A stretch of 64,000 nt of DNA, from assembly GCA_905221605.1 (NCBI GenBank), contig CAJNDS010000042.1, positions 43,501 through 107,500 of the forward strand, given 5' to 3'. The translations under genes and the position numbers were made by a program. The notes beneath the pieces are model-generated. The model saw only the letters and a program-made list of their open reading frames with translations. It made no database searches and was not told the origin of the DNA. Positions 27,577 through 50,430 of the stretch are shown in pieces (position 1 is the first letter of the stretch; each line of letters opens with the position of its first letter). Source of the stretch: Symbiodinium natans (taxonomy: Eukaryota > Sar > Dinophyceae > Suessiales > Symbiodiniaceae).

Positions 27577-29958
27577 TCAAACAAATAGCCGTCGTCCCGC
27601 CCTGTAGCCTTCACATCTGTAAGTATCCGCACTCATAGCAGTCCCATCCCCATCAACTCTGGTCCAGTGACTGCACACCTCCCCTTCGGCAATTGTGCTG
27701 GCAAAGGTCAGACAGGCAAACCCCTCAAGACTCTTGGAACTCTCCACTGGCTCTGTCCACACTTCACAGCGACCTGCGCTGTACTCGATGCCAGTGCATT
27801 CCGGTGTCAGAATGCACTTTGTCTTGCATGCATCTAGCCCAAACTCTGCGTGCACCACGTAGTAGTCTGGAGAATCATCATCAGGGTTGGCTCCACTGCA
27901 CGCCCGCGCAGACCCACCGTCCAGAGGTTCAAAGAAAAGGTGATCAGGGAGCCTGCCGATGCTAGACGAGCTGGTCTCTATGGACTCGCTGGTCATGATG
28001 GACTCGCTTGTCGTGATAGACTGGCTCGTCGGCGAAGCGCTGCTGGAAGTGATGGACTCGCTGGTTGTCATGGACTTCGTGGACGTGATGGATTCGCTTG
28101 TGCTGATGGGGCCGGCCATGTAGCTTTCGCATTTGTGAGATTCTGCAGTCGTGACGCTCCCATTCCCTGCAACTCTGGTCCAATCACTACAAATCTGCCC
28201 TTCCGGAAGTGTGCTGGCAAAGGTCAGACAGGCAAACCCCTCAAGACTCTTGGAACTCTCCACTGGCTCTGTCCACACTTCACAGCGACCTGCGCTGTAC
28301 TCGATGCCAGTGCATTCCGGTGTCAGAATGCACTTTGTCTTGCATGCATCTAGCCCAAACTCTGCGTGCACCACGTAGTAGTCTGGAGAATCATCATCAG
28401 GGTTGGCTCCACTGCACGCCCGCGCAGACCCACCGTCCAGAGGTTCAAAGAAAAGGTGATCAGGGAGCCTGCCGATGCTAGACGAGCTGGTCTCTATGGA
28501 CTCGCTGGTCATGATGGACTCGCTTGTCGTGATAGACTGGCTCGTCGGCGAAGCGCTGCTGGAAGTGATGGACTCGCTGGTTGTCATGGACTTCGTGGAC
28601 GTGATGGATTCGCTTGTGCTGATGGGGCCGGCCATGTAGCTTTCGCATTTGTGAGATTCTGCAGTCGTGACGCTCCCATTCCCTGCAACTCTGGTCCAAT
28701 CACTACAAATCTGCCCTTCCGGAAGTGTGCTGGCAAAGGTCAGACAGGCAAACCCCTCAAGACTCTTGGAACTCTCCACTGGCTCTGTCCACACTTCACA
28801 GCGACCTGCGCTGTACTCGATGCCGGTGCATTTCGGTGTCAGAATGCAATTTGTCTTGCAGGCACCTAGTGTAAACACCGGGTGCACCATGTAGTAATCT
28901 GCCAAGTTGTCATTTGGGTGGCTTCCCCTGCATGCCCGTGCAGACCCACCGTCTAGAGGTTCAAAGAAGAGATGGTTCGGGAGCCTGCCGATGCCAGACG
29001 AGCTGGTCTCTGTGGACTTGCTGGTCATGATGGACTCGCTGGTCGTGGTCACCGAAGTTGTCAAAGCCTCGCGTGTAGTGGACGAAGAGCTGGTGAAAGA
29101 CTCACTGGTGTTGCTTGGCACACTTGTTGTGACTGCATCTTTCACCTTGCAATGGCAGCAACTCAAACGATAATGTACATCGTAGGGACCCCATACTTCT
29201 GATCGCACCTCCTCCGTGAGCTTGATCCAGCAAGAACCCATGCTCCATCCAAACAACCAAGCTGCGTCACTGCACTCGTGAGGGTATCGACGCTCATCGG
29301 TGATGGGGGTGCTCCAATAGCCGGATCCACTCTCACAAGAGAGTTCATAGTCACCGCCACATGCAAGGAACCTGACGCCCTTCCAATTCGAATTCTCCCA
29401 CCCGTCGTTGTAGTGCCACCTAGCCGCTCGGGGAATCAGCGCACAAGGATTCTTTCGCCAGCACGTGAAGCTCGACAAGTTCTTGAAGGCCTCAATGGTC
29501 CGTGTCCACAGTTCACAGCGGCCCGAGCTCGTTTCCACCCCTGTGCAATTGGCGCGTTTCAGGCAAAGCTCCTTGCACTCTGCTTCCTGGACTGCTTTCA
29601 CCTCGTAATAGCTGTCATGATTGTCATTCATGCTGCTGCCCCGACATGCACCTGGCGACGCGGAGAATTCTCCCGGGCCAAGCTTGGCAATGAGCATGCA
29701 CCCGGGTTCTCGCCCTGTTCCAGTGTGCACAGATCGCCGGCAGCAAGTGCGAAACAGGTGATCAATCCAAAGCTTCGCATGGCGAACCAGAGCGCGCAGA
29801 GATGGCTTGAGCGCTACTTGCAAGACAAAGTCGGTTAGCCCCGAGCTTGAGGTGCAAGTGAGGCCAACGCAAGCTAGGCCCCCGATTGTTGCACGGCCTG
29901 TTTTCTTCAAGCTCAGCCTGCAGACCTTTTCAAAACAAAGCACAAGAATTGCACTCAT
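27577..29958 (-). CDS. Secreted PAN/apple-like repeat protein, intronless
   Basis: A single uninterrupted frame of 793 residues. Residues about 103-166, 342-405, 514-577 and 686-749 are four related Cys modules, each with a Cys near the start, 'CKTKCILTPECTGIEYSAG' or a variant, then 'RCEVWT' and a final 'FAC'. This is the Cys-x3-Cys plus C-x-G-x-E pattern of PAN/apple-like extracellular modules, which usually bind protein or carbohydrate. Each of the last three is followed by a W/C segment ('SDWTRVAGNG'). Residues about 172-270 form a separate Cys- and Trp-rich domain. Ser/Thr-rich linkers ('TSESITS' repeats) suggest O-glycosylated stalks. Modules 3 and 4 are an almost exact 172-residue duplication. 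The N-terminal 90 residues lack an obvious signal peptide, so the true start may be downstream or a 5' exon may be missing. Surface adhesion is inferred. Confidence 0.75.
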   Translation of the reverse strand: MSAILVLCFEKVCRLSLKKTGRATIGGLACVGLTCTSSSGLTDFVLQVALKPSLRALVRHAKLWIDHLFRTCCRRSVHTGTGREPGCMLIAKLGPGEFSASPGACRGSSMNDNHDSYYEVKAVQEAECKELCLKRANCTGVETSSGRCELWTRTIEAFKNLSSFTCWRKNPCALIPRAARWHYNDGWENSNWKGVRFLACGGDYELSCESGSGYWSTPITDERRYPHECSDAAWLFGWSMGSCWIKLTEEVRSEVWGPYDVHYRLSCCHCKVKDAVTTSVPSNTSESFTSSSSTTREALTTSVTTTSESIMTSKSTETSSSGIGRLPNHLFFEPLDGGSARACRGSHPNDNLADYYMVHPVFTLGACKTNCILTPKCTGIEYSAGRCEVWTEPVESSKSLEGFACLTFASTLPEGQICSDWTRVAGNGSVTTAESHKCESYMAGPISTSESITSTKSMTTSESITSSSASPTSQSITTSESIMTSESIETSSSSIGRLPDHLFFEPLDGGSARACSGANPDDDSPDYYVVHAEFGLDACKTKCILTPECTGIEYSAGRCEVWTEPVESSKSLEGFACLTFASTLPEGQICSDWTRVAGNGSVTTAESHKCESYMAGPISTSESITSTKSMTTSESITSSSASPTSQSITTSESIMTSESIETSSSSIGRLPDHLFFEPLDGGSARACSGANPDDDSPDYYVVHAEFGLDACKTKCILTPECTGIEYSAGRCEVWTEPVESSKSLEGFACLTFASTIAEGEVCSHWTRVDGDGTAMSADTYRCEGYRAGRRLFV
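27690..28824 (-). repeat. 516-bp tandem duplication inside the PAN gene
   Basis: Bases 27690-28308 match 28206-28824 with an offset of exactly 516 nt (172 codons). The match is essentially perfect until about 28800, where it diverges. The reading frame is preserved. A third, older copy lies further upstream in the gene. Confidence 0.93.
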
Positions 29959-35385: not shown

Positions 35386-35432
35386 GCTGAAGATTCCTGC
35401 TGTGCATAGCCAACAAGCTTTGCATAGCCAGC

Positions 35433-36660
35433 CTTGGGCAGGTCGCTTACCCATTCTCCGACGAAGACCTTCCCGCTCTCGGCATAAAAGTAGGAGCCGC
35501 TACCTTCTCTCATGTCCTGGCAGGAGGCCACTCTGCCCGGCTCTGCCCTGCAACTGTACACAATAAAGTGACGTTCAACTGAAGAGCGCACGTTGAGCCA
35601 AAAGCCCTCGTAGCAGTCACCATTCGCCTGGCAACATCCGCACATGGTCCAACGGTGGGAACTCCGGTCCAGTTATCGTCCGATGTTTATGTCTGGCTCC
35701 CTTACGGCCCCCTCAGAGGCTACTGGGCTACAGTTCACCCGCAGCCTTCGTCAAGGTCCCCTGCCCAGATCGAAGGCCATTGCTCCACTCGCCTATGTAC
35801 AGATCGCCTGAGAAGAGTCTGCAAGGCAATGATGGCCGTGGAGCTGCACGCAGTGCCGCAGTGAGGGGAGGACCGTTGCTATATCGCAGCAATCCCTGGC
35901 CATTCATCTTGCCCTGCACAGGTCTTGCTCACAATGTGAGCCTTGACGCAGGGCACACCACTGCCTGGGTCCAGTCTCCCTGGAAGAACTGCCCGTCTTT
36001 GAAGAAGCACGTGCCACGACCTACGCACAGTCAGTGGCTCTAAGCAACCTGCATGAAGCATCACGAAGCTGACACAATGCCTAACTGAGCCAGCTGAGCC
36101 AAAGGCCATGTCGTTTGTCGTTCTTCCAGCCGCCGACATAAAGCTTGCGAAGCTTTTTCGCCTCCGTGTCCCAAGCACCCAATCACTGCAACCAGCAGGT
36201 CCAACGAGGATCAGCCTTGCCAAACGGCACCCAGAGCGTCCCCTCGCCATTCCTGCTAGCGGACAATGCACTTCACACTGGTTCTGGTGGTGGGTTCTGT
36301 CTCGGGCTCAAGCCGCATGCCGTTCGCCCATTGGCCCTCGTACTTCTGGCCGTTCGGGAAAACCTGTAGCCGATTGTCTACATTTAGGTCGCGTGCAGCC
36401 CCCTCCATCTCACAAGCACTGACTCATGTGTACAGGTTGGCAGCCTGCACGCCATAGCCGTTTTTCTGGTTGTCTTAGCTCTTGCAAGGTGCCATCATGA
36501 GTCTGCAGCATCTGGAGTTCAGCGTGTCCAAAAAACTCACACTGTCCCAACATGCCGGCCGAGCAGCTATCCCACTCGCCCTGGTAACTAGCTCCTTTTT
36601 CTACCTCCCCAGTCTTGGAACCATCCTGCGACAAGGTGCACCGAAAGCTTCGCAAGAAGA
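35433..36660 (-). CDS. MORN-repeat protein (multi-exon)
   Basis: At least eight MORN motifs (Y-x-G-x-W-x-N-x-x-x-G-x-G). Exons: about 36655-36568 ('GASYQGEWD'), 36445-36473 ('NQKNGYGVQ'), 36314-36363 ('GQKYEGQWANGMR'), 36216-36252 ('NGEGTLWVPFGK'), 36107-36161 ('LYVGGWKNDKRHG'), 35965-36020 ('RGTCFFKDGQFFQGDW'), 35874-35913 ('GKMNGQGLLRYSNG'), 35746-35807 ('LYIGEWSNGLRSGQG'), 35588-35627 ('NGDCYEGFWLNV'), 35433-35503 ('YFYAESGKVFVGEW'). Every junction keeps phase. Nine of ten donors are GC, one GT; one intron is only 54 nt. Exon 35433 probably joins a C-terminal exon near 35300. MORN proteins often sit at membranes, binding lipid or scaffolding cytoskeleton; this one's partner is unknown. The start upstream of 36655 was not resolved. 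Confidence 0.8.
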
Positions 36661-36955: not shown

Positions 36956-37690
36956 TGCATCCGGCATTTTGCCGTTCCAAGACCCGTACCCAGTAGATGG
37001 TCCCTCGCTGACCGGTCCTGAGCACTGGCGGATTGCCCGAAAAGCGTGCAGCATAGGTGAACAGTGGGGGGTAGTCGCTTTCGGGGTGGTTCCTGAACAT
37101 TTTGGGGGGTTCCTATAACAAAGATCAAGGTATTGTATTTGTGATCGTTGCATTCATCTAGTTATTTTAATGTGTGTGTGTGTGTTTTTTTTTTACTTTT
37201 TCTGGGGTGGGGGTGGTGCATTCAGAGAACCCCGATTTAGTTTGGGAAATGGCCATTTGTGTACGCTGAGCGAGTGCATGGCGTTTGATCACAAAACCTC
37301 GCCCCAAAACAATCGTGCAAGTCCCTAATAGACCATGATAAACCCATAGAAACCCCAAAAAAATTTCTCAAGACGACCTTTAGATCAATCCCCACATGAG
37401 AACCGCAAAAGGAAGAAGTTCGAGAGATCTCAAGAGCAGCGCCGGGGCCCCGACTTCATGGCTTTTCGATCGTGCTTCCTGCAGCCCAGTCTTTGGGAGA
37501 CGCCAAAGGCGCGGGAGGGGGGGGGGGGGGGGGGTGGTTTGAGGTAAGAGAAATCTGTGTTCAAGTGAGGCCCCCGGCTTCCAAAGAACTTCTGGTCTGG
37601 GCCTGGAGAAGACGGGGAGAGATGTGCAGGGAGACCGATTGCCCTCCATCCTGGGCTTCCCGCGCTCTCATGGTCGCCATGCTCACCTGC
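36956..37690. other. Intergenic; poly-G run at 37517-37534
   Basis: No supported exon. A GT/T tract lies at about 37170-37195, and a run of 18 G at 37517-37534. This probably separates the ELAPOR-like gene (3' end near 37.6-37.7 kb) from the MORN gene. Confidence 0.45.
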
Positions 37691-40600
37691 CTCTCTTCGG
37701 CAGGCTCATAGGCCGGGCCCTGCTCGCAGCAGGATGATACCGAAGGAGGGTCGACATGGAATCACTATGGAGTCCACGCCATGGAGTCACACCATGACCT
37801 TGGAGGACGGCGCGATCGAGGGCGACATCGGGGAGCCTGGATCCGCCATCCTTGGCTTCAGGGTTTCGCAGCCCCTTGAAACGGCATTTTCTCATGAGCC
37901 TGACAGGGCCGTTGCCCCCCAAGCTCCCGGCTGCGCAGTCAGCAGCAAGGCGGCACAAGCACCCCCGGTCACCAGCCAACTACCATTAACGACCAGTCCC
38001 TAGATTGATTGACTGGAGCCGAGACCTCCCGACACACGATGGCACATGGAAGCTCGAGTCAGCTCAGTGTCGCTCTCCTACTTGGCCCTTTCGGAGAACC
38101 TCATGCTAAGCCTTATACTTCTACATGTCTCGGACCTTCATGAAACTGATGTGCAAAGCCAATTATTGAGCGCCTACACCTCACTTACCTCCTGTCATCC
38201 ACTTGGGTTTACAAAGGAGAGTGGGCCATGCAAGCAAGAGGGTGTAGGCGTCAAACGTTGGCAACAGCCAATGCCCCCGCTTTTCACACTTGCGGGCTGT
38301 CAGGCACTCCGATGCTGGACGGCGCAACTCCATTGGCATGCGGCTCCTCCAAGACCATGTACCTTGAATAACGCCTGGGCGCAGAGAAGTGAAGGATGTC
38401 GGAGCGCATCGTACAAGTACTATGCCAAAGCTGAATTGCCCGCCTTCTCAGGAGCAGGACATAGCAGCTGAGACAACAGAGAATGCAGCCCACAAAGGCC
38501 CCCATCGCGACAAAAGCGAGGATGTTCACCACCTTCCATCCATCACAGTCAGCAGAGTCAAACATTCAAACACCACATCGGATCAAGCAACTTGTGTAAC
38601 TTTCACTCAGAATCCTGCTACTAGTATAGCAAGTTTCATCCCCATCCCTCCCTCAGACTCCGCGGCAAAGCGCCAAGGAACCCCAGGACACGGGCGCCAG
38701 AAATCTGGTGGTTTCGGAATGCCCCCCCTGCAACCGCTGGGCGCCACGTAGCTCACGCGCTGGCCTGCGGCAATCCCACGCGTCTCGTCTGATGATTCGT
38801 GCTGTCATTCGAAGAGCCCTAACCAAGGTTCGGCCTTTCACAGAATCGCACTGGTGGGGCACCGTCATCTCCCAGTCACCTGCCACTGAAGGGCAAGACA
38901 CCGGCAAGACAGATCCTAGACAGGGCTTAGATGGGCTTAGTGTTGTCCAAGGGGAGTTGAAGTCAAGTGAAGGCCAAAGGCAGACGAGGCACCCTCTTGG
39001 CATTGTGGACATGCCAAAGGCGTCGACCACTCCAATGCCAGGTCCTCGCAGCCACCTAAGCACATGGCTGAATTGCCGGACTCCAATACCCATAATAAAG
39101 GAAAATATTCCTTAAATCATAATAGGTATCCTTCTATGGTTTAAGGAATATTCCTTAATTCAGGGGTATAGTGGAGTCTCTGGGCCTAACCCTTGGGCCG
39201 ATGCCTGGAGTCTGCGGCCGCATGGCGCTGAGAAGCTTCATGTCCAGGTTGTCGCGTCGTGCGTCTGGATCACCTTGGAACGGTGCTTTGATGAGCTTTT
39301 TGAGTGCTTTTTGCAACCCTATGCCGCCTAATTATACCATAGACCTCCCGGAACCCTAAACAGTGGAAATCCCTGAGCAGTATACCTATACACCTCGACA
39401 TCGCCAAATGAAGATACACGCCCTACGCCTCTAGCTGCTCCCAGGAGGCAACTTAGAAGTATGTGAAGCTCCCGCCGGGTCCGCTGTCCCATCTGGTCCA
39501 ATGGCTCACATTGACCAACAAAGTTCAGCCAAAGGCCCGGAGGCTTGCCCTCGTTTGGCTTTATCTCACGCAGGGTTTCGGCAAAGGGCCGCAAGGCGGA
39601 GGGCGACGAGACTGTCGCGTCGCACGCATCGCCCTCGCTGCTGGCTCTTGGAGGTAAGACTTCCCAAACGTACGCTGCCGCAGCTGCAAACTGCTGCGAA
39701 ACGCCCGGGAATTGCTTGGGCTCGAGTAAGCTCATGTAGTAGGTCCGGTCCTATAACAGGGGATGCCAAGCAAACATAGTCACAAGCAGGCTGTGAGAGG
39801 GCTCCTCCGGTCCTCCACCTCGATAGCTCTGAGACCATTCACTTGTGAGGAGTTCCAGGCGGTCAGGATGGACTGGGAGCTCCACTGCAGCCTGCCGGCA
39901 CCCCCCAGGGTGACCAGCGGCTTGCAGAAGCTGGCCCCTGCACAGGGACCCATGAATTCGCCCAACGAGAAGCAAGAAGAAGACAACAAGCGCATATGGC
40001 ATGCATAAGCGCACGTAAGCGCAATATGAGGCGAGAGCCTGGGTCGCTGAAGGTTCCAGGACCACAGGGAGTGCAGGTGGCAGAACCCCGACCCCGATTG
40101 CCGCTGCTCGCACGCCCAGCAGGGCATCGGCTGCAGCCTGCAGAATCTGGGCAGCAGCATACGGCTGCAGGATAATCATAATACATCATAGTACAGTCCT
40201 CCCCAGTCTTGCCGACTCTTCCCTGCTTTCATCGTTTCCGGGACCTTCTTGGACAGGCTCGCCGCCGTCCATGGCCGTGCTCCATCCCGGTGGGCAGGGA
40301 TGGCACCTTGGTTTCCGGATTTTCCCGGTTCAGATTCCTCCCATAGTCATGTTTGCAGGAGAACCGGCCCCTGAAACGGCTGAAACGGGTGCACGAGGCA
40401 CACCGTGGAGTTTACCAGGCCGCGGCCCGGGGGACATGTTTGGCATGGCCCTGCTTGGCTGGCGCCTTTCAAGGTACGGAGCTGGCCCAGCTATTACAGA
40501 GCTCGCATTCGATGAGGCACGTAGAGAAGAGCACGTGATGGGCACATGCAAATAGCGGCACCTACAACATTGGTCACGGAGACATTCAAGAGCCGGAGGC

Positions 40601-43600
40601 CACTTCCCTCCTGCTGCAGGCTGGTGTCTGCCGCCTGCTCCTGTACACGACACGGCGCATTCCCAGCATTTTCAGCTGCGGCCCCAGCCCTTAAGAGAAG
40701 TGTCCTCCAACTTTGGACCAGTGTAGCGCCACACCCAAGTCACCCAATGCCATCCGGGCTCCATGCCTGGGGGGACTCCGATGCAAAATGGAACACCACA
40801 GAATCTCGCAGAATGATAAGGAGGTCGAGCAATGCGGACTGGACTGGGCTTTATGTTGAGGGCACGAATTACCCACATACGCCCACGTGGAAGACGCACA
40901 TTTCTTACCCAAACCTGCGTTGCAGCCGAGGCTCGCAACGAAAAATGCAAGCGCCCGTCCAGGAGAACCTGAGCCGCCATCCCTGAATTGGTGGACTGGA
41001 TGGAAATCTAGGCTGTGTGTTGGAGGCACTGCCACATTCAAGCGGGCTTTTCGATTTCTTTTAAGGGACTAGAACAAGAACGTCGCCCCGGTTTGCATTC
41101 AGGCTCGGAGATGCTGTCTGACTTTTACACTTGAAGCGATTGACAGGTTCCCAGGCTGGCCCCAGCAGCTAGCAGCGTGCCACTTGCTAAAATTCTTGGG
41201 CGGGCGGGGCCGCGGATTGGCGCCGTACAGCTTGTTTTTCGCACCATGCGACAGGACAGCTGCAAGTTGGTTGAAGGGAAGGGCACGGTATTGTCGGCGA
41301 CGGACAAGTTTGCAGTCTACTTGCCCTATCCGCTCAACACAACGCCGAGACCTGAACCGGCAGAAGTCAGTTTCTGCCCAAGCCACCACTTCTGGCTGTT
41401 GAGGTTCATGATCGACATACAGAGCACCCGCTGCCGACCAGGCTCCAGCAGGCTTCTCCTCTAATGTAAACTTCATCCGCCCCGGATTGGCCAAGGAAAC
41501 CTCAGATCGCAGACATCCCAGCCCAAGAAAGTTGAGAGTCATGCTGACCAGCGTCTGAGTGCACAGTAAAAAACATGCCCACAACCCACGGGTCCACCAT
41601 GCCCCCACCCTCGCGCCAGCTTCCTCCGGTCTCCGCCCCTGCTCACCCACGCTCCGGACCCTCGTATCTAGCTTTCATGGAGGCCCCGCGGCCCCCCTCT
41701 TCTCAAATATGCGTGCAGCACACGTCACGGAAAGCCATGGCAGACTCCACTCCTACACCCCAAGCCCCAGAACCATCCAGAACCATAGGCCCAAAACTGA
41801 AGCCGAGTCCTTGTCCTTAAGAAGGCCGCACGTGTTCCACACCTTCCTGGCCTCTGTACTCTCTTTGGTAAACTCCCCTTAACTCTATGTTCTCAGCTCC
41901 GGAAGGCTTCAAATACCAGAACCAACAGAACCAACCACAAGGGTTTTGCGCTTACTTAGGAGTTGGGGTGTGGAGATGCAAGCGCAAGAAGGTCTCAGCT
42001 TGGGCGAGCTGATTATCTCCATTCGGGCCAAGATGCATCCAGAGTCAACAGAGCTTGATCTGCCCTGGCTGAAAGCAGAGCCTTTCGAGGATTTTTGTGA
42101 AGTGCCCAGTTTGCTGTTTGGCAAAGGTTCGCATTCTTGGGCTGTGTGTGGGTTTGTGCCTCCGCTTCGGCGCCACCACCTCCAAGGAAGGCGGTTCCGA
42201 CCTCGACGGCGGAGCCATCCTGCGAGACAAAGCGTCCACGGAGCCACGGCAAGTCTGCAGAGGCTTCGTTCCAGCATGGACATTGCGAGCGGGCCACGGG
42301 TGCTAGCTGCCAGGAGTGTGACTGATCTTCGACGGAGGGTCGGCCTCGACGTCCACAACAGTTCAAGTGTCAAGATGTCTCAGGCCCTGCCAGGCTCCCC
42401 TTGGCATGCGGCCCCAGATCCAGGACGTAAAGTTCTCCGGGAACACCTCCCATCGGTTTACTTTCCTTGCGCTTCAGGGATGAAGGTCTCCGAAGTTGCT
42501 AAGACAGATGAAGCTGGAGTTGGCTAGAACATGCTAGAACGTCATGTTTCATCATACATGCAGGCAAAACACAAAACGGGCAGCGCAAACTTTGGCGCTG
42601 GACACGTTCGTGCAGGACGATTCACCTAAGCAACACCCACAGTGCAGGCTTGCGTGCGGCAAATCTGGGCCGTTGAGGTGCGGCAAGGAGACTTGACTTG
42701 GGGGGGGGCAGGGCTATATAAGTGGTTTTTGCGTGACAAGCGTTTGTGGCTTGCAAGTGAGTAAAAAGGCTGAGCCTCACTTCCACCTGGCCTGAGACCA
42801 TGTCTCGGACCTCTTAGGTATCGTAGAGTCGGTCTTCAGACCGCCTGCTGAGCCCCTGGAGAAGTCTGCTCACTTTCCCGTTCGATTGAAGATTGCAGCA
42901 GGCAGCAGTGCTTCAGCTGTCGCACAGTAGGAGTGTTTTCTGTTTTTGCTGTCGTGGCTTTGTTGTCGTCGTGGCCGGGGCGCGCCTAGTTTTGCAATTG
43001 GCTCTTGACTGTTGCTTCGAATGAAACGAATTAATGCAGGTATCAGTCCTGAAACAGTCTTCCTCTGTCGGTGCTGCGCGTTTCGGTGCTGCCAAGGGTT
43101 CAGCGTCCCAAACCGTCTGGAAAACATCTTGGCAGACTCAAGTTCGGTGCTTGAAACTACAATGCGAAGGTTTACAAGGGAATGACTTTAAGCCTGAATG
43201 CCCATGAGCAGCCCCCTGACGCTTGCTCCTTCAAGCCTCCTAAAAGGAGAGTCCGAGCCACGCAGGTGCCACCATTGGGCCTCCACCGAAATGGCTGACA
43301 GGGTGGGCACTGCCGAACCCTCAGCTGCACAGTGCTTTCAAGCTGCTTGCCGTGTCTTTAAAAAAAACTTTCGGCTCTTCACCGCGCCAATAGATCTGAC
43401 AAGCATCCTGTTGTTCGTCGTGATGCCAACCATTGCGTTGGCCGAAAGTGTCGTCTGGCAAGTCATGGGCTGCCGCCAGACCGCATGAACCATGGTTTTG
43501 TTTCCTCGGATTCACAGTCACACAAGCAGCTGTTGACTAGCATTGCAACAATGCACACACACAGGCACATGCACTGATCAAGAACCCCTGCATAATCACG

Positions 43601-43785
43601 TAATTTCGAGTGTATAGCGGATGAGTGGCATGTAAGTCTCCCCACATGCTTGTGAATGTCTTTCGGCAAAAGTGTAGCAACAAGCAGGCGTTGCGATGCT
43701 TCCGATAGAACTATATATATATATATACATACATACCAATCTTGGTGCCACAAGGGGCCCGCAACCGATCTAGATGCCCCTGACA

Positions 43786-43819
<34 letters not shown>

Positions 43820-46206
43820 CGTGGGGAAAAGGGGGTTTTTAGGGTTTAGCGTTCTTGCACCTCAGAGTTCATAGCGTCTCCTAGCTGACTCGGCAGGGCT
43901 TCTCTGCATATACAACAAGATGTGGTCAGATGTGGAGAAGATGCGCAAGCACTCTGCCTGCAGCGCCCAGGCTGGGTGTTGGGTCGATCACATTGTGCAA
44001 TGCGGTTTAGGGGCCTAAAAAGTCAACCACACGCAAAGATGTAATTCATAAGCTTTTGTCGTTGGACCCGCTGCCGCGAAAACCTGGCATTTCTTAATTC
44101 TGCATTTGGGTCGTGCGTACTTATATATGCGAAAGTTCGCAAACTTCGGGTTTTCTGTGAAAGGAAATCAACAGCCATGGTTATGCAGGCAATCCTGTTT
44201 TAGTTCCCGATTGTTTGCAATCATGTTCCTTCCCTAGGTTGTCTTAGAGTCTTTGCGATTTTTTGAACTATTGCGAGAATTCTTGAATGTTTGCACAAGG
44301 TTTGAGATCTTACGAAAGCTTTCGCATTTACTGTTGGGCAAGATTCGATTTTTGAGCTTTCGACGTTGCGCTGTTTTGCGAAAATGTGCGAATTCAGATC
44401 AGCCACATAACTGAGGCTGACCTGTACTGGCTGCAAGGCTTCGCTGCTGATCTGTGTCAGCCTATCCAGCTCAGCCCCATGTACTATAAGCCCAGGTAGG
44501 CGCTGACATTTGCCCCCCTCGCACTCATGTGAAGTTCAGCGTCCACGGCAAAAGACGGAATCGGACGCCGCGGCCTTGCTGGAGTTCCACGCCCGGTAAA
44601 CGATCCTGATGCGGACATCCATGGTACTGCAACGGCCAGTAGTTGCCAAGACCAGCCGCCAAGGTTCTGTGCATCTTGAACCGTACAAGTCCGCCGGACC
44701 TGTCGAGGCTGAGCTATGGTGTGTACGAAAGAGATGCGTCTTGCATGGCACACGAACGATGCCTTGCCTGGCAAGAATCTGAGCCAACACTGCCAGCCGG
44801 GGCCCAAGAGCCCCGAGGGCATTTTCGGCAGAGAATCCGGTCCACCTGCACCTCAAGAAATTTCAGCAAATCCCCCCGAGCTCCTGGTAACCCGCCTTTC
44901 TGAGCCGCGTGCTTCTGAGTACCTGGGATGCAGGTTTTCCACAATCCACGCGGCTGCGCTGCAATCACAATTTACACACCTTCCTCAGCTTCCAATAAAA
45001 CGAGGGGCTGATCACGGCCGCAGGTCTGGCAGTGTCCGCTGCCGGGACTGCTCAGCACCTGAGAGCTTCAGTGTCTTCCAAGACGCGAGAGTCAGACCCA
45101 CTCGTTGTTGCATCTTGTGGCCTTCGATGGCCTTCGCCTTCTTTAAATTGTATCCTATATTCCGGTACTTGCGGAGCAATGTGCCGAAAAGCCTTTGAAA
45201 ATCTTGATCGTGTGCGGCCGTTCATATGCCTTCCAGGCCATTAGTTGTAAGAAAGGCGGCGCAGACTGAGCGGCGTTGTTGAGGGCCGAAAGAATGTCAA
45301 ACGCTTCCAAACTTGTGTACGTGACAGAGAGAACAAATCCAGAAAAGCAGGGCCCTGATCTGAGCATAGTGAGCTACGATGTGTCTACGAGGCTCGAAGC
45401 ACACTGCGGTGGAAGTGCAATGGCTGCGAGTTCAGCCCAGGCACCGAGCAGCTGCGGCAGGTCAAGTCGCCGTGCGCCGTGCCTCAGGACTCACAGCCAC
45501 ACATCAGCACCCAGCTGCTTCTGAACCGGTCTAGCTGTGCAAAGCCTGCCCCGCCTGACACTTCTAGCAGCTGTAGCCGTGCACGATCTTCCCCAGCTGT
45601 GGTTCCAAAATCCTGTTGCGGCGCAGAATCTGAGCAGCAGAACTGCTAAGAGAGGAAGCACATGGTACAGTAGCAAGACCCAAAGCCCAAAGTCCTTCTT
45701 GTACGTCCACGTGAAGCTGCGAGAGCCACGAGAAACAGGAAATCTGACATCTTGCCAGGGAGCCACTTGAGAGCGGAGGGATCCATTGAAAACCTCGCAT
45801 GTCTTGAGCCCTTGCAACTCGTGGAATGCCAAAAAAAATGCGAATGCGGAAGTATGATATAATACAACACTATAGTCACATAATACACTCAGTTGCCAAG
45901 GTTAAGGCCCCGGCTGGTTCACCGTCAATCTCAAAGACAAGGCCGTCGTAGCCCCTGAGTCAAAACTTGCGATGAAGGCGCTCTGCAGTGACTTGCGACG
46001 CACTCTATCTGAATTCATCTGTCAGTTGCAAGTTCTCTGAACGGCTCTAACACAATAAAGACGAGCTTCATTTCTGCGTCCACTGCATAGCGGAAGCGAA
46101 TATAGCCGTCGCGAACAAAACGTACAGAATACCTGAACTCATTCACATCCATTTCTCCCTCAAGCTGTCCATAGGAGCCTACATGAAAGGCGACAAAAAT
46201 TGGCAA
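37640..46206 (-). CDS. ELAPOR/EIG121-like type I membrane receptor (long, partial model)
   Basis: Minus-strand exons in this order suit a large secretory-pathway receptor. (1) Beta-sandwich segments at about 46.05-46.17 kb ('GYIRFRYAVDAE'), 45.90-45.96 ('GYDGLVFEIDGEPAG') and 45.69-45.82, ending 'SRSFTWTYKKDFG'. (2) Exon 44768-44845, 26 codons, 'VDRILCRKCPRGSW' plus 'GSVGSDSCQ', a GCC2/ephrin-receptor-like Cys repeat. (3) A second beta domain at about 41.35-41.55 ('VSLANPGRMKFTLEEKPAG') and about 40.68-40.8 ('PGWHWVTWVWRYTGP'). (4) Exon 40048-40137, second Cys repeat ('CSRCPAGRASSG...CTPCGPGTFS'). (5) About 39.44-39.73, with an MRH-like pattern ('LWLNFVGQCEP', 'RRELHILLSC'). (6) Exon 38444-38532, transmembrane helix ('NILAFVAMGAFVGCILCC'), followed from 38374 by a basic tail 'RRYSRYMVLEEPHANG'. 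Human ELAPOR proteins share this layout and act in the endolysosomal system. Many exons remain unplaced, so two genes are possible. Confidence 0.5.
39104..39152. repeat. AT-rich inverted repeat (hairpin)
   Basis: Arms 39104-39120 and 39136-39152 are complementary at 16 of 17 positions, with a 15-nt loop. The motif GGAATATTCC next to it is itself palindromic. It lies within the span of the ELAPOR-like gene, between the MRH-like and transmembrane exons, so it is intronic. Confidence 0.8.
41700..44760. other. Unplaced middle of the ELAPOR-like span; poly-G run at 43786-43819
   Basis: I could not assign exons between the first Cys repeat and the second beta domain. A plus-strand frame at 43198-43488 and another at 41946-42527 are open but have no recognisable motif. 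A run of 34 G at 43786-43819, followed by TTTTTAGGGTTTAG, lies in the middle and could be an assembly weak point. If this span is intergenic, the receptor model should be split here. Confidence 0.4.
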
Positions 46207-46448
46207 TGATTCACATCTGAGGGGCGTTAAATAAGAGAAAATCCAGTGAAAGCCGCGGTTGTCTCCAGAGTGCAGGAAGCTGCCAGCTGGGTCGGCAGCC
46301 CAGAGTGAGCAACCTTCGAGCGCTTTTTCGTGTCTGCGGGTGTCTGTGGCTTCCCTCGCTCAGCCCTGGGCCTTTCTGTGAGGCCTCCCAGCTGTCCGCG
46401 TTGGTCAAAACCTCGCCTCGACACAGAAAGCCCCCTCACATTGCTCTG

Positions 46449-46467
46449 CCCCCCCCCCCCCCCCCCC
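46449..46467. repeat. Poly-C run
   Basis: Nineteen consecutive C between the PA-domain exons and the first ELAPOR-like exon. It is probably intronic if the two form one gene. Confidence 0.95.
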
Positions 46468-46779
46468 GCCCCCAAAACCCCAAACATCCCACGAACAGCA
46501 CCCCCGGCGCGCCGCTGCGGTTCGTTGTGGGTGCGGCCTCCCGCCTGCAAACGCTCTCTCGTACCATCTGCAAAGCTTATCACAATGCAGGAAGCCCAAC
46601 CTGTCAAGGCTGCAGCGGGTGCTCGGGATTCTGAAATACAACCTCATCAAGAAACAGGAACTCAGGCAACTCAGGCTGCTGGCTTCAGGCGACATGATAC
46701 CCCAGCGCTCTTCACGCGGCGCACAATATAGCTTACTCTGCCAAGCAGCGACTCGCCCTCAGCGGCAGCGTCGGATGCC

Positions 46780-47397
46780 AAGGTCACCATCCGCTCACCT
46801 GCAAGTGCGGCCAAGGACAAAAATCTGTGATGACCTGTCTAAACACATCACTGCTCTACTAGGCAAAAAAAAAGTCGGAAGTGATGCTTGAGGAAGAAGC
46901 CATCCTCGCGGGTCACCATGTAGATCGGGATCCCCGCAGCCGAGCCTCACATGCCCAAGAAGCAAACGGCCGCCGATTCTTTGCACAGCGCCACTTCCCT
47001 GTTGAGCCCCGTCACTGTTTGGTGCCGCTGCAGGGATGAAATGCGGCCTCACATGCTTCTTGGGTCCAATCTCAGCCATGCAAAGGTAAAAGCGTGGCCT
47101 GTGGAAGAGGTTGTTGTACACAATCACGGCCTGAGCGCTGTGTGACATTGTGTGCGGAAGCATCTCGTGGGCTGTCACACCCAACCTTGGCACCCGCAGC
47201 TTCAAGGTGCTGCGTCTTCGTGGAGAAAGGACAGGTCCCTCGAGGTTGGTAGAGTCGCAAGAGCGCGCAAGGACTCTACAACTGACACCAGGCATGAACT
47301 TCATGAACACTTGGCCTCGTAGTACCAGAACTGCTGCACCGTCGATTGCGCTGTCACCGCCTCTACGAACGACAATGCATGGGTGGGCAACCTTCAA
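46780..47397 (-). CDS. PA (protease-associated) domain exons
   Basis: Four exons join in phase into a PA domain: 47316-47397 ('GDSAIDGAAVLVLRG'), 47186-47238 ('TCPFSTKTQHLEAAGAK'), 47067-47130 ('AVIVYNNLFHR...'), and from 46945 ('GIPIYMVTREDGFFLK'). The core 'LVLRGTCPFSTK...AGAKAVIVYNN...IPIYMVTREDG' matches the PA fold of vacuolar sorting receptors, subtilases and PA-TM-RING proteins. Donors are GC, GT, GA. A helical piece at about 46730-46795 ('LASDAAAEGESLLG') probably follows. PA domains sit on the lumenal side and often select cargo or substrate. No protease or RING domain follows; instead the next coding sequence on this strand is the ELAPOR-like receptor, so these exons may be its N-terminal part. 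Possible upstream exons lie at 47.98-48.3 kb. Confidence 0.72.
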
Positions 47398-47690
47398 CCT
47401 TCATCTGCAGTGTGCTTGCTCTTGAGAGGACATGTTGAGGTTGTTGCACAAGTTGCACACTTGTACCCAAGTCAAGTTCTTCGATTGTTTTCTCCGTGCA
47501 TAGGTTCAATGCACTTCAGTCCCTCTTGGTCCAACCCCAGACGATGTGACACGATGTGCCCAAAATTGTGCGTTCCCATGGCTGAGGTTGTTCTCAAGTC
47601 CGACACCGGGAATGGTGAGCCCGCAGCTGATCGGATCGCAGGCCAACCCATCGATGGTGTGGAAGGGCACCTTCGCGCCGGCGCGCGCAC

Positions 47691-47966
47691 ACACAACACA
47701 CAACACACAACACACAACACACAACACACAACACACAACACACAACACACAACACACAACACACAACACACAACACACAACACACAACACACAACACACA
47801 ACACACAACACACAACACACAACACACAACACACCACACAACACACAACACACAACACACAACACACAACACACAACACACAACACACAACACACAACAC
47901 ACAACACACAACACACAACACACAACACACAACACACAACACACAACACACGCACAACACACACAA
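47691..47966. repeat. Heptanucleotide array (ACACAAC)n
   Basis: About 38 copies of a 7-bp unit, with one break (ACACCACACAAC) near 47834 and degenerate ends. Because seven is not a multiple of three, all reading frames stay open and give low-complexity Thr/His/Asn or Cys/Val repeats. These are artefacts, not proteins. Confidence 0.97.
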
Positions 47967-47969
47967 GTA

Positions 47970-48360
47970 TGAAGCTTCCTCTAGGACCCTAAGAAACAGG
48001 GGGAAGTCAGCGGCATAATCTTTCAAGCAGAGCTTGGCAGCGCCCAGCTTCATCACAAAGTCACTTGAATATATTGGCCCTTCACTCCCCGACTGTTTCG
48101 GCAATTCTTGTTCTCTGTCACATCACGCCGCGGACCTGCAGGGCAACGTCCGGCAAGTTGCGGTTCCAGGTGCCAGCCCTTGAAAGCCGCGTCATGGCAA
48201 CAGAGAGCCAACAGAGAGCCATCACGGTACACAGCGGCATTCAGGAAAACTTCACTGATTCAGCTTTTTTCCGGGGGCCGAACCGGGTCTCTGCCGAAAG
48301 GCCTTCAGCTTGGCCAGCATGCTCCAGGTGGAGAACCTGGAGAATGCGTCATCCCATGTC
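47970..48360 (-). CDS. Possible 5' exons of the PA-domain gene
   Basis: Two minus-strand stretches read like protein: about 48165-48260 ('VFLNAAVYRDGSLLALCC') and about 47975-48060 ('GAAKLCLKDYAADFPLFL'). They are in different frames and would need an intron between them. They lie upstream of the PA exons, and the heptanucleotide array would then be intronic. No domain is recognised. Confidence 0.33.
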
Positions 48361-49296: not shown

Positions 49297-50430
49297 CTAC
49301 ATGAACATCGGCGTCATCGTCCCACACTCACTTTGGTCCACATCATTCAAGACGGACAAGTCAAAGCCCTTCTTGGTGGCAATCTCCCTAACCTTCTCCA
49401 CCAAGGCAGCATCACGCTTCTGCTCGCGAGTAAAGATCCACAAGCCAGAGCCATTGGTGCCAGTGCCCGTAGTGCAGCCCGCATCAGTGGCAATCTTGGG
49501 GGGACCACCCGAGATCAAAGCGTAGCCGGCGGCCTCATCATAAGCGATGACCCAATATGGGCCTGCCAGGAAAGAGGGCAAGAAGCAAGGAGCAACTGCC
49601 AACTGCCCGCGGCTCTTGTCCACCACTTTGGCGCAGAGCATGCTGCCGGAGTCATGAGCCGTGTGAGGGGGCGCCACGTCTTCCGCATGGTTGTGCACAT
49701 TGACATCGTATCCCCAAAATGTCTTCTTGGCCGGGAGCGTGTAGTCAGCATAAACGCAGCGGTTCTGGGACTTGGGAAGGTACTTCACTGGCATCTGTTG
49801 TTGAATGTACCATCGTTTGGAGATGAAGCTTTCCAGGTCAAAGCTCTGCACTGAGTCAAAGCCCTCAGGTGGGCACGAGGCCTTCGACTGCAAAAACTCT
49901 GCTGCGCTAGTGCTCTTCGTAGTCTGCAGGCAGTCCGTGGGATTGTCGCCGGCTCCAAAGGACGGGCTCACCTTTGTTTCGGTGACAGCGAAGTCCTTCC
50001 CCACAGGCTTGCATCCTTCAGCAGAGCCGCAATACAACATGCGCATATTGCAGTAGTTGGTGGAGAAGTCTTTCACTGAGAACACTTGGCTCTCGCTGCA
50101 GCCTTGAATGTTGCAGGTGCCGTCCGTGCCGTCTTCAAAGGTGAATTTTATCTTGTCCGTGTACTTCTTGTTCCCCGTGACACGCTGCAAATCCAACTCG
50201 CCTGAGCTATGCCCATCAATAGTGTACGTGCCATTGTTGTGGGGGTCATGCCATTTTCCAGTGCTGATGCCCGCCACTCGAGCTTCCATCTCAGACATGA
50301 CATCCTTGCATGACGCCTTGGCGGTCACATCAACCTGACAACTGGCATGTACTAACGATTTCGACCCCGGGCAAGAGTTGGCAGCCGCGAAGGGAGCAAT
50401 GGCAAAGGCTGCAAGCAACCTGCGGGACAT
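49297..50430 (-). CDS. Secreted lipocalin-domain protein, intronless
   Basis: A single frame of 377 residues. I chose the ATG at 50428-50430 because it is followed by a typical signal peptide ('MSRRLLAAFAIAPFAAANS'); the frame is open 70 codons further up, but that part is Cys-rich and unlike a leader. Residues about 20-170 form a Cys-rich domain (about 10 Cys, 'FSTNYCNMRMLYCG'). Residues about 187-370 fit a lipocalin barrel: 'ISKRWYIQQQMP' in place of the GxW motif, 'YWVIAYDEAAGYALISGG', and a closing helix 'KVREIATKKGFDLSVL'. Lipocalins bind small hydrophobic ligands; bacterial Blc, apolipoprotein D and violaxanthin de-epoxidase share this fold. The ligand is unknown. The absence of introns contrasts with all neighbours except the PAN gene. 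No spliced-leader relic is seen upstream. Confidence 0.8.
   Translation of the reverse strand: MSRRLLAAFAIAPFAAANSCPGSKSLVHASCQVDVTAKASCKDVMSEMEARVAGISTGKWHDPHNNGTYTIDGHSSGELDLQRVTGNKKYTDKIKFTFEDGTDGTCNIQGCSESQVFSVKDFSTNYCNMRMLYCGSAEGCKPVGKDFAVTETKVSPSFGAGDNPTDCLQTTKSTSAAEFLQSKASCPPEGFDSVQSFDLESFISKRWYIQQQMPVKYLPKSQNRCVYADYTLPAKKTFWGYDVNVHNHAEDVAPPHTAHDSGSMLCAKVVDKSRGQLAVAPCFLPSFLAGPYWVIAYDEAAGYALISGGPPKIATDAGCTTGTGTNGSGLWIFTREQKRDAALVEKVREIATKKGFDLSVLNDVDQSECGTMTPMFM

Follow-up and report, generated by a model that had tools for sequence, protein, structure and literature searches.

The stretch of DNA considered here (the window) comprises 64,000 nucleotides of a contig from the dinoflagellate Symbiodinium natans (C42:43501-107500), and the genome searched alongside it comprises 759,417,921 bases in 2543 contigs. 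On the minus strand of the window, from ~48.2 kb down to ~38.3 kb, lies what appears to be a single gene of ~10 kb, divided into many small exons; 27 of these have been placed, some as fragments only. Its product would comprise, in order, a short N-terminal region, a PA domain, a beta-sandwich, a TNFR-like cysteine module, a second sandwich, a second TNFR-like module, an intervening stretch, a transmembrane helix, and a short tail. Since the PA domain, the ELAPOR-like exons, the transmembrane segment, and the tail all occupy the minus strand, the PA domain at ~47.4 kb should be located near the 5' end of the gene. We consider it somewhat better than an even bet that this locus is one gene encoding a type I membrane receptor for the sorting of cargo, in which a PA domain is joined to an ELAPOR-like ectodomain. 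Such a fusion had been proposed in an original prediction made from the DNA alone, which placed it at 37640..47397; this range contains the PA domain, and a candidate 5' exon extends further up, to 48240. We also agree with its statement that no recognisable other gene intervenes between the PA and receptor parts, the last PA exon and the first sandwich exon being separated by 325 bases.

The PA domain is assembled from five small exons, all coordinates being given for the minus strand: exon 1 (47316..47391, VAHPCIVVRRGGDSAIDGAAVLVLR, donor GC), exon 2 (47186..47238, GTCPFSTKTQHLEAAGAK, donor GT), which was found by a spliced profile search and completes the RGxCxF loop, exon 3 (47067..47130, AVIVYNNLFHRPRFYLCMAEI, donor GA), the end of which is uncertain by several residues, exon 4 (46877..46945, SAAGIPIYMVTREDGFFLKHHF, donor GA), and exon 5 (46737..46798, ERMVTLASDAAAEGESLLGR, donor GTAAGC), which runs in phase 0 into sandwich 1. 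The spliced chain matches Pfam family PF02225 with 46.9 bits (E 3.1e-12) against a curated cut-off of 23.9, and with 43.5 bits (E 3.6e-11) when embedded in the 381-residue model described below, so the predicted PA exons are real. Exon 5 falls outside the Pfam-matched stretch, and its AEGESLLG aligns just before the first sandwich of ELAPOR1 (the reference throughout is the chain of PDB 9vqm, a 907-residue stretch to which all ELAPOR1 positions refer). A join made by eye (VLVLRGQVFMKFMPAHEML...) reached 13.6 to 15.9 bits with PF02225, under the cut-off, with a SprT-like match scoring higher in two of the tests; it was rejected after the spliced profile search had recovered RGTCPFSTKTQHLEAAGAK, which it lacked, directly before AVIVYNN.

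The profile used in that search, in which GT, GC, and GA donors were allowed, was built from 53 bacterial PA loci and two frames with PA from the genome of the window. A scan of bacterial genomes with the PA of locus L002 had returned 575 pattern matches, none of them confirmed, and a piece of YwaD returned the 53 loci; because the YwaD seed was picked once a weak match between it and the target had been seen, the profile is not blind, and the Pfam result does not depend on it. The target scored 47.5. Of 126 tiles of 2 kb run across the window, three on the minus strand overlap the target and were excluded, and the other 123 reached at most 19.1; the highest of 500 dinucleotide shuffles was 21.7. 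When 80 strand-loci of the genome (the first 2000 bases of 40 loci, on both strands) were scored, three known PA loci alone exceeded 19.8, two of these being in the profile.

The original prediction had likened this domain specifically to the PA of plant vacuolar sorting receptors (VSRs), and here it did not stand. The PDB matches at E<=1 are 13 sequences, all of them aminopeptidases, keratinase, C5a peptidase, or transferrin receptor, which we take to carry PA domains; the nearest solved relatives are bacterial peptidases (YwaD, E 7.7e-7; keratinase KP1, E 3e-4), and there is no VSR chain among the 13. The RGxCxF loop of plant VSRs is present as RGTCPF, and this motif is generic to PA domains, occurring, for example, as RGECSF in loci L001 and L064 of the same genome. 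Another locus of this genome, L003 (C1986:209750-209974), possesses a contiguous PA domain in which seven residues are inserted after the position of the RG loop.

The end of PA exon 5 (AGA/GTAAGC, the slash marking the exon boundary) joins the first sandwich exon (GCGAG/GTTTTG) in phase 0 across an intron of 325 bases. Extended in this manner from 47391 to 43262, the spliced model has 18 exons and 381 residues with no stop. The acceptor AG is followed by G in 15 of the 18 model exons, relative to 29.5% of 706 AGs in the region, and the donors of the 17 internal junctions are GC (11), GT (3), and GA (3). Symbiodinium introns are described in one published study as using GT, GC, and GA donors, with GC approximately as frequent as GT, and as having G after the acceptor AG (PMC4083563). 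Homology and phase guided the choice of junctions, so that phase by itself cannot count as independent support; the short gap and the G that follows the acceptor AG speak better for the join, though the choice of exons was not blind. Like the PA domain and the ELAPOR-like cysteine modules, this possible in-phase splice is read from the DNA, and we infer that PA and ectodomain are carried by one transcript.

The same arrangement could arise from two co-directional neighbours, a small secreted PA protein that ends at the in-frame stop after PA exon 5 (46673-46671) and an ELAPOR-like receptor that starts in the next 260 bases; we regard this as decidedly unlikely. An ATG-initiated frame from 46695 (MSPEASSLSCLSSCFLMRLYF...) would suit it, and Symbiodinium genes are described as unidirectionally aligned (PMC4083563), so adjacency on the same strand is, by itself, no evidence for one gene. 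However, the last PA exon and sandwich 1 lie only 325 bases apart, and the sequence between them is bounded by a good donor and by an acceptor in the matching phase. Moreover, the frames of four of the five ATGs in 46736-46300 stop inside that interval, the fifth (46487, MFGVLGAGGGGGGQ...) staying open, and none of the five has a clear signal peptide by eye. Finally, the N-terminal cysteine module with which ELAPOR1 begins (positions 1-65) is undetectable in the region (34.5 versus a control mean of 35.8), and PA occupies its place. A 21-base spliced leader was not found with up to five mismatches on either strand of the window, which is weak evidence since the leader is added in trans.

Downstream of the join, both halves of the ectodomain align colinearly to ELAPOR1 positions 67-600, the stretch of sandwich 2 being mostly gapped. 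Beta-sandwich 1 (45546..46411) is a weak assignment from the in-phase splice model and the ELAPOR1 alignment; its six exons (46411-46372, 46313-46254, 46178-46067, 45954-45909, 45793-45695, and 45612-45546) align to the expected positions 67-199, 23 of 1000 shuffles do as well, and there is no relevant Pfam or PDB match. Cysteine-rich (TNFR-like) module 1 (43262..45482; exons 45482-45425, 45050-44990, 44845-44752, 44699-44660, 44626-44575, 44523-44492, and 43319-43262) was obtained from the splice model, and none of 1000 shuffles matched ELAPOR1 as well, or two of 1000 when the cysteines were held fixed. In a spliced scan with ELAPOR1 that made no use of the chosen exons, it scored 69.0 against a control maximum of 65.0 (n=22). 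The part after PA (the N-half) scored 102 with ELAPOR1, as compared with a maximum of 63 in 500 shuffles and 71 with cysteines fixed.

In the second half, sandwich 2 is represented by two weak fragments (42413..42460, NRWEVFPENFTSWIW, and 40915..40968, VLLDGRLHFSLRASAATQ) and by its last strands (40705..40766, MEPGWHWVTWVWRYTGPKLE, donor GA), and 46 of 1000 shuffles match ELAPOR1 as well. Cysteine-rich (TNFR-like) module 2 (40039..40610; exons 40610-40550, 40465-40393, 40306-40263, and 40137-40039) was not equalled in 1000 shuffles either with or without fixed cysteines, and it reached 56.5 in the spliced scan against a control maximum of 49.5 (n=22). A refined five-exon chain, consisting of the end of sandwich 2 and this module, is open and scores 118 with ELAPOR1, the shuffles reaching no more than 86. 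Searched against the PDB at E<=0.1, this chain found ELAPOR1 structures only (8.9e-5; 3 of 177635 sequences), and its top Pfam family is PF23091, TNFR_ELAPOR1_6th (E 1.8e-5; 25 bits, under the cut-off of 33.2). An earlier join of the C-half also matched ELAPOR1 only at E<=1 (3.2e-6; again 3 of 177635 sequences), and the C-half fragments scored 117 versus a maximum of 73 in 500 shuffles, or 83 with cysteines fixed. The two predicted cysteine-repeat modules are thus present, and they resemble those of ELAPOR1, both of them by shuffles and spliced scan and module 2 also by its PDB matches and its top family, the latter below cut-off.

Cysteine modules of this kind also occur outside sorting receptors, and a PA-bearing surface or matrix protein, its cysteine modules and sandwiches serving adhesion as in Mst1 or CRMPs, deserves consideration, although we judge it fairly unlikely. 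The cysteine repeats of ELAPOR1 itself match Mst1 (PDB 8tx1, E 1.5e-7), which means that the type of module is shared. Ephrin-receptor-like cysteine repeats (PF07699) gave at least 148 matches in the genome (150 scored of 540 candidates), many of them in long, intronless frames of up to 2410 residues and in clusters (for example, on C631, C2125, C1324, C2461, and C224), and these resemble cysteine repeat modular proteins (CRMPs). In addition, the C-half of the receptor gene matches a cysteine-repeat frame on C2467 (E 5.2e-4, 32% identity) that has several hydrophobic segments by eye. In the PDB, however, module 2 matches ELAPOR1 and not Mst1, with PF23091 as its top family, and the combination of one transmembrane helix with a short, YMVL-bearing tail after it is in keeping with a sorting receptor.

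The match on C2467 is the best of seven that the C-half found elsewhere in the genome, the other ten of its 17 matches being the window's own; the remaining ones have E values of 0.045 to 0.49, and six of the seven loci, the frames of which were examined, were taken as cysteine-repeat proteins or chance rather than as copies. Likewise, 15 of the 17 genome matches of the 381-residue model are the window's own exons, and the other two, on C413 (E 0.09) and C206 (E 0.69), scored like controls. Among 2321 frames from 44 other genome loci, sandwich 1 and module 1 had no match at E<=1, and the loci that the PA part did match were L001 and L003.

At the 3' end of the gene, the transmembrane exon (38444..38550, DCDGWKVVNILAFVAMGAFVGCILCCLSCYVLLLR) is present as predicted and, read directly, is strongly hydrophobic; it carries VVNILAFVAMGAFVGCILCCLSCYVLLL and joins the tail exon in phase. 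The latter (38284..38374, RRYSRYMVLEEPHANGVAPSSIGVPDSPQV, then a stop) contains the tyrosine motif YMVL, and, provided that this last exon is read through to the stop at 38284, the tail would be RRRYSRYMVLEEPHANGVAPSSIGVPDSPQV. A basic tail had been predicted, and it is basic next to the membrane and not beyond; further tail exons as far as 37640 are possible and not needed. A single transmembrane helix and a YXX-hydrophobic tail motif are therefore both present in the sequence as read. They are not specific to ELAPOR1, since 138 of 1000 shuffles match it as well. At the other end of the gene, an uncertain candidate for the first exon (48136..48240, MPLCTVMALCWLSVAMTRLSRAG..., ending CTGCAG/GTCCG) was taken from the open reading frame list and a three-frame reading; it is signal-peptide-like by eye and without a Pfam match. 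Between it and PA exon 1, just upstream of the latter, is a 278-base array of the ACAACACAC type (47689-47966) that is probably intronic.

The surroundings of the gene were also surveyed. Directly upstream on the minus strand, a separate frame in one exon (49300-50094) begins hydrophobically by eye and resembles lipocalins (Lipocalin_2, E 8.3e-5, 23 bits versus a cut-off of 24; VDE lipocalin, E 0.021), and downstream on the same strand (35397-36423) are frames with MORN-like repeats by eye, the single stretch tested having no Pfam match. Telomere-like heptamer arrays are found inside the contig at 3477-3520, 17975-18037, 18178-18239, and 25631-25765, with units GGTTTAG, AAACCCT, CCAAACC, and CCCTAAA in up to 19 copies. 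Two 130-base arrays at 27980-28109 and 28496-28625, ~500 bases apart, have a common 18-base unit and identical statistics, which suggests a local duplication. The window gave no Rfam match and no tRNA. A codon-bias scan of both strands picked out a few exons (the transmembrane exon and PA exon 4), with low-complexity and plus-strand stretches comparable, and was not decisive.

Several observations weigh against a single PA-ELAPOR receptor gene. Splice choices were guided by homology and phase, and exons were not chosen blindly. The gene model is incomplete at the N-terminus, where the candidate first exon would have to be linked to the PA exons, and in the stretch from 43.2 to 41.0 kb. At the sensitivity used, no second genomic copy with the same order was found, and the order thus has no comparative support. 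The first half after PA is without a relevant PDB match, and the earlier joins of the C-half prefer PF07562 (NCD3G; 0.0045 and 0.0022) over the ELAPOR1 TNFR model (1.6 and 0.017), all of these being below cut-off. Composition rich in cysteine also inflates scores, the bias amounting to 6.8 of 16.5 bits for the best domain of the earlier C-half PDB search. The two beta-sandwiches are in their expected places and remain weakly supported, as the PA piece, a control not expected to match ELAPOR1, was equalled by 20 of 1000 shuffles, comparable to the sandwiches; that piece aligned to an unrelated place in ELAPOR1. In the exon-blind spliced scan, the two cysteine modules alone were detected, both exceeding all 22 control tiles, and controls reached the target in 16 of 22 cases for the N-terminal module, 14 of 22 for sandwich 1, 5 of 22 for sandwich 2, 19 of 22 for MRH, and 6 of 22 for the C-terminal part; for all five of these undetected segments, the antisense strand outscored the target. 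A looser alignment to the single ELAPOR1 sequence, in which splicing was allowed and introns were penalised lightly, strung together chance fragments throughout and was discarded.

The MRH-like exons of the original prediction were not confirmed. In the region corresponding to the MRH domain of ELAPOR1 (38700..39750), there are only fragments such as DRTYYMSLLEPK and GQRVSYVAPSGCR, picked by eye and unsupported by tests: 730 of 1000 shuffles are as good, and the spliced scan found the control tiles just cited to be as high. A genome search with PF23087 (MRH) gave no matches, although this search ignores introns and yielded nothing in any control genome either. A run of seven Gs (38722-38728, minus strand) interrupts a reading that resembles the end of an MRH domain (RVSYVAPSGCR / HSETTRF); one more G would continue it, and the run may be an assembly error, an intron, or a real frameshift. 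Together with the parts missing from the expected architecture, this run is what favours a decayed or misassembled locus, either a pseudogene or an assembly chimera, which is nevertheless highly improbable in our estimation. Neither the 18-exon model nor the five-exon second chain contains a stop, though their exons were chosen to stay open, and the low-complexity runs are intronic in the gene model.

On balance, the locus is best read as a PA domain spliced in phase to an ectodomain of the ELAPOR type, and two parts of the original proposal are unsupported, the MRH domain of the animal architecture and a PA domain specifically of the plant VSR kind. By analogy with its relatives, from which the function, cargo, and destination are all surmised, the lumenal PA domain (through the arginine of RGTCPF, as in plant VSR1), the cysteine modules, or both would bind soluble cargo in the Golgi, and the YMVL tail would engage clathrin adaptors. 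The cargo would then leave the receptor in an acidic organelle of lysosomal type, which might be one that becomes a trichocyst. That the function is reasoned wholly by analogy is a further point against the receptor. We give an even chance to the fuller proposal of a single-transcript dinoflagellate receptor for sorting to the lysosome or vacuole, combining two cargo platforms that are separate in plants and animals, with PA replacing the N-terminal module of ELAPOR and with a YMVL motif resembling those of both families.

To our knowledge, the selection of cargo for lysosome-related organelles in dinoflagellates and other alveolates is poorly known. If the two parts are indeed one protein encoded by one transcript, PA-ELAPOR would be an unusual sorting receptor. 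It would link two lineages of sorting receptors, one with the PA of the plant VSR type and the other with the ectodomain of a receptor recently reported to take proinsulin to the lysosome, and it would be relevant to the question of whether the ELAPOR architecture is older than animals. Full-text searches of open-licence papers returned no description of a PA-ELAPOR fusion, and the combination may already be present, unannotated, in public proteomes.

Mst1 (mastigoneme-like; PDB 8tx1) has cysteine repeats in common with ELAPOR1 but is absent from the PDB matches of either half of the receptor gene. The CRMPs and GCC2/GCC3 (PF07699) proteins of alveolates share the ephrin-receptor-like cysteine repeats, which are abundant in this genome; the examples read here, however, are long frames in one exon, and several hydrophobic segments occur in some of them, whereas the receptor gene is split into tiny exons and encodes a PA domain and one transmembrane helix.

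With plant VSR1, the gene shares a PA domain near the N-terminus, an RGxCxF loop with the carboxylate-binding arginine, and type I topology. The PA of VSR1 is described as binding the C-termini of cargo through Arg95 of RGDCYF (PMC12796998); Tyr99 of that loop is proline here, and in the PDB it is bacterial peptidases, not a VSR, that neighbour this PA. Pfam recognised neither the thioredoxin-like domain that directly follows PA in VSRs nor the three EGF repeats that precede the VSR transmembrane helix, whether in the 381-residue model, which begins at PA, or in the second chain; both of these stop short of the transmembrane-proximal stretch. The short tails are alike in their YMxL motif (YMVL here, YMPL in VSRs), and a published account of VSRs gives their tails as ~30 residues with YMPL and states that VSRs also occur in alveolates (PMC5264500).

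The closest likeness in overall order is to ELAPOR1, also known as inceptor (KIAA1324; PDB 9vqm and 9vql), which is reported to be a sorting receptor from the trans-Golgi network to the lysosome that delivers proinsulin and insulin to lysosomal degradation and carries a YXX-hydrophobic signal (PMC11659164). Identity to it is low, with MRH not demonstrable in the dinoflagellate gene, weak sandwiches, and PF23091 below cut-off. Both nonetheless appear to present the succession of sandwich, TNFR-like module, sandwich, TNFR-like module, transmembrane helix, and tail with a YXX-hydrophobic motif, and they differ at the beginning, where ELAPOR1 has its own N-terminal cysteine module and the dinoflagellate gene has PA.

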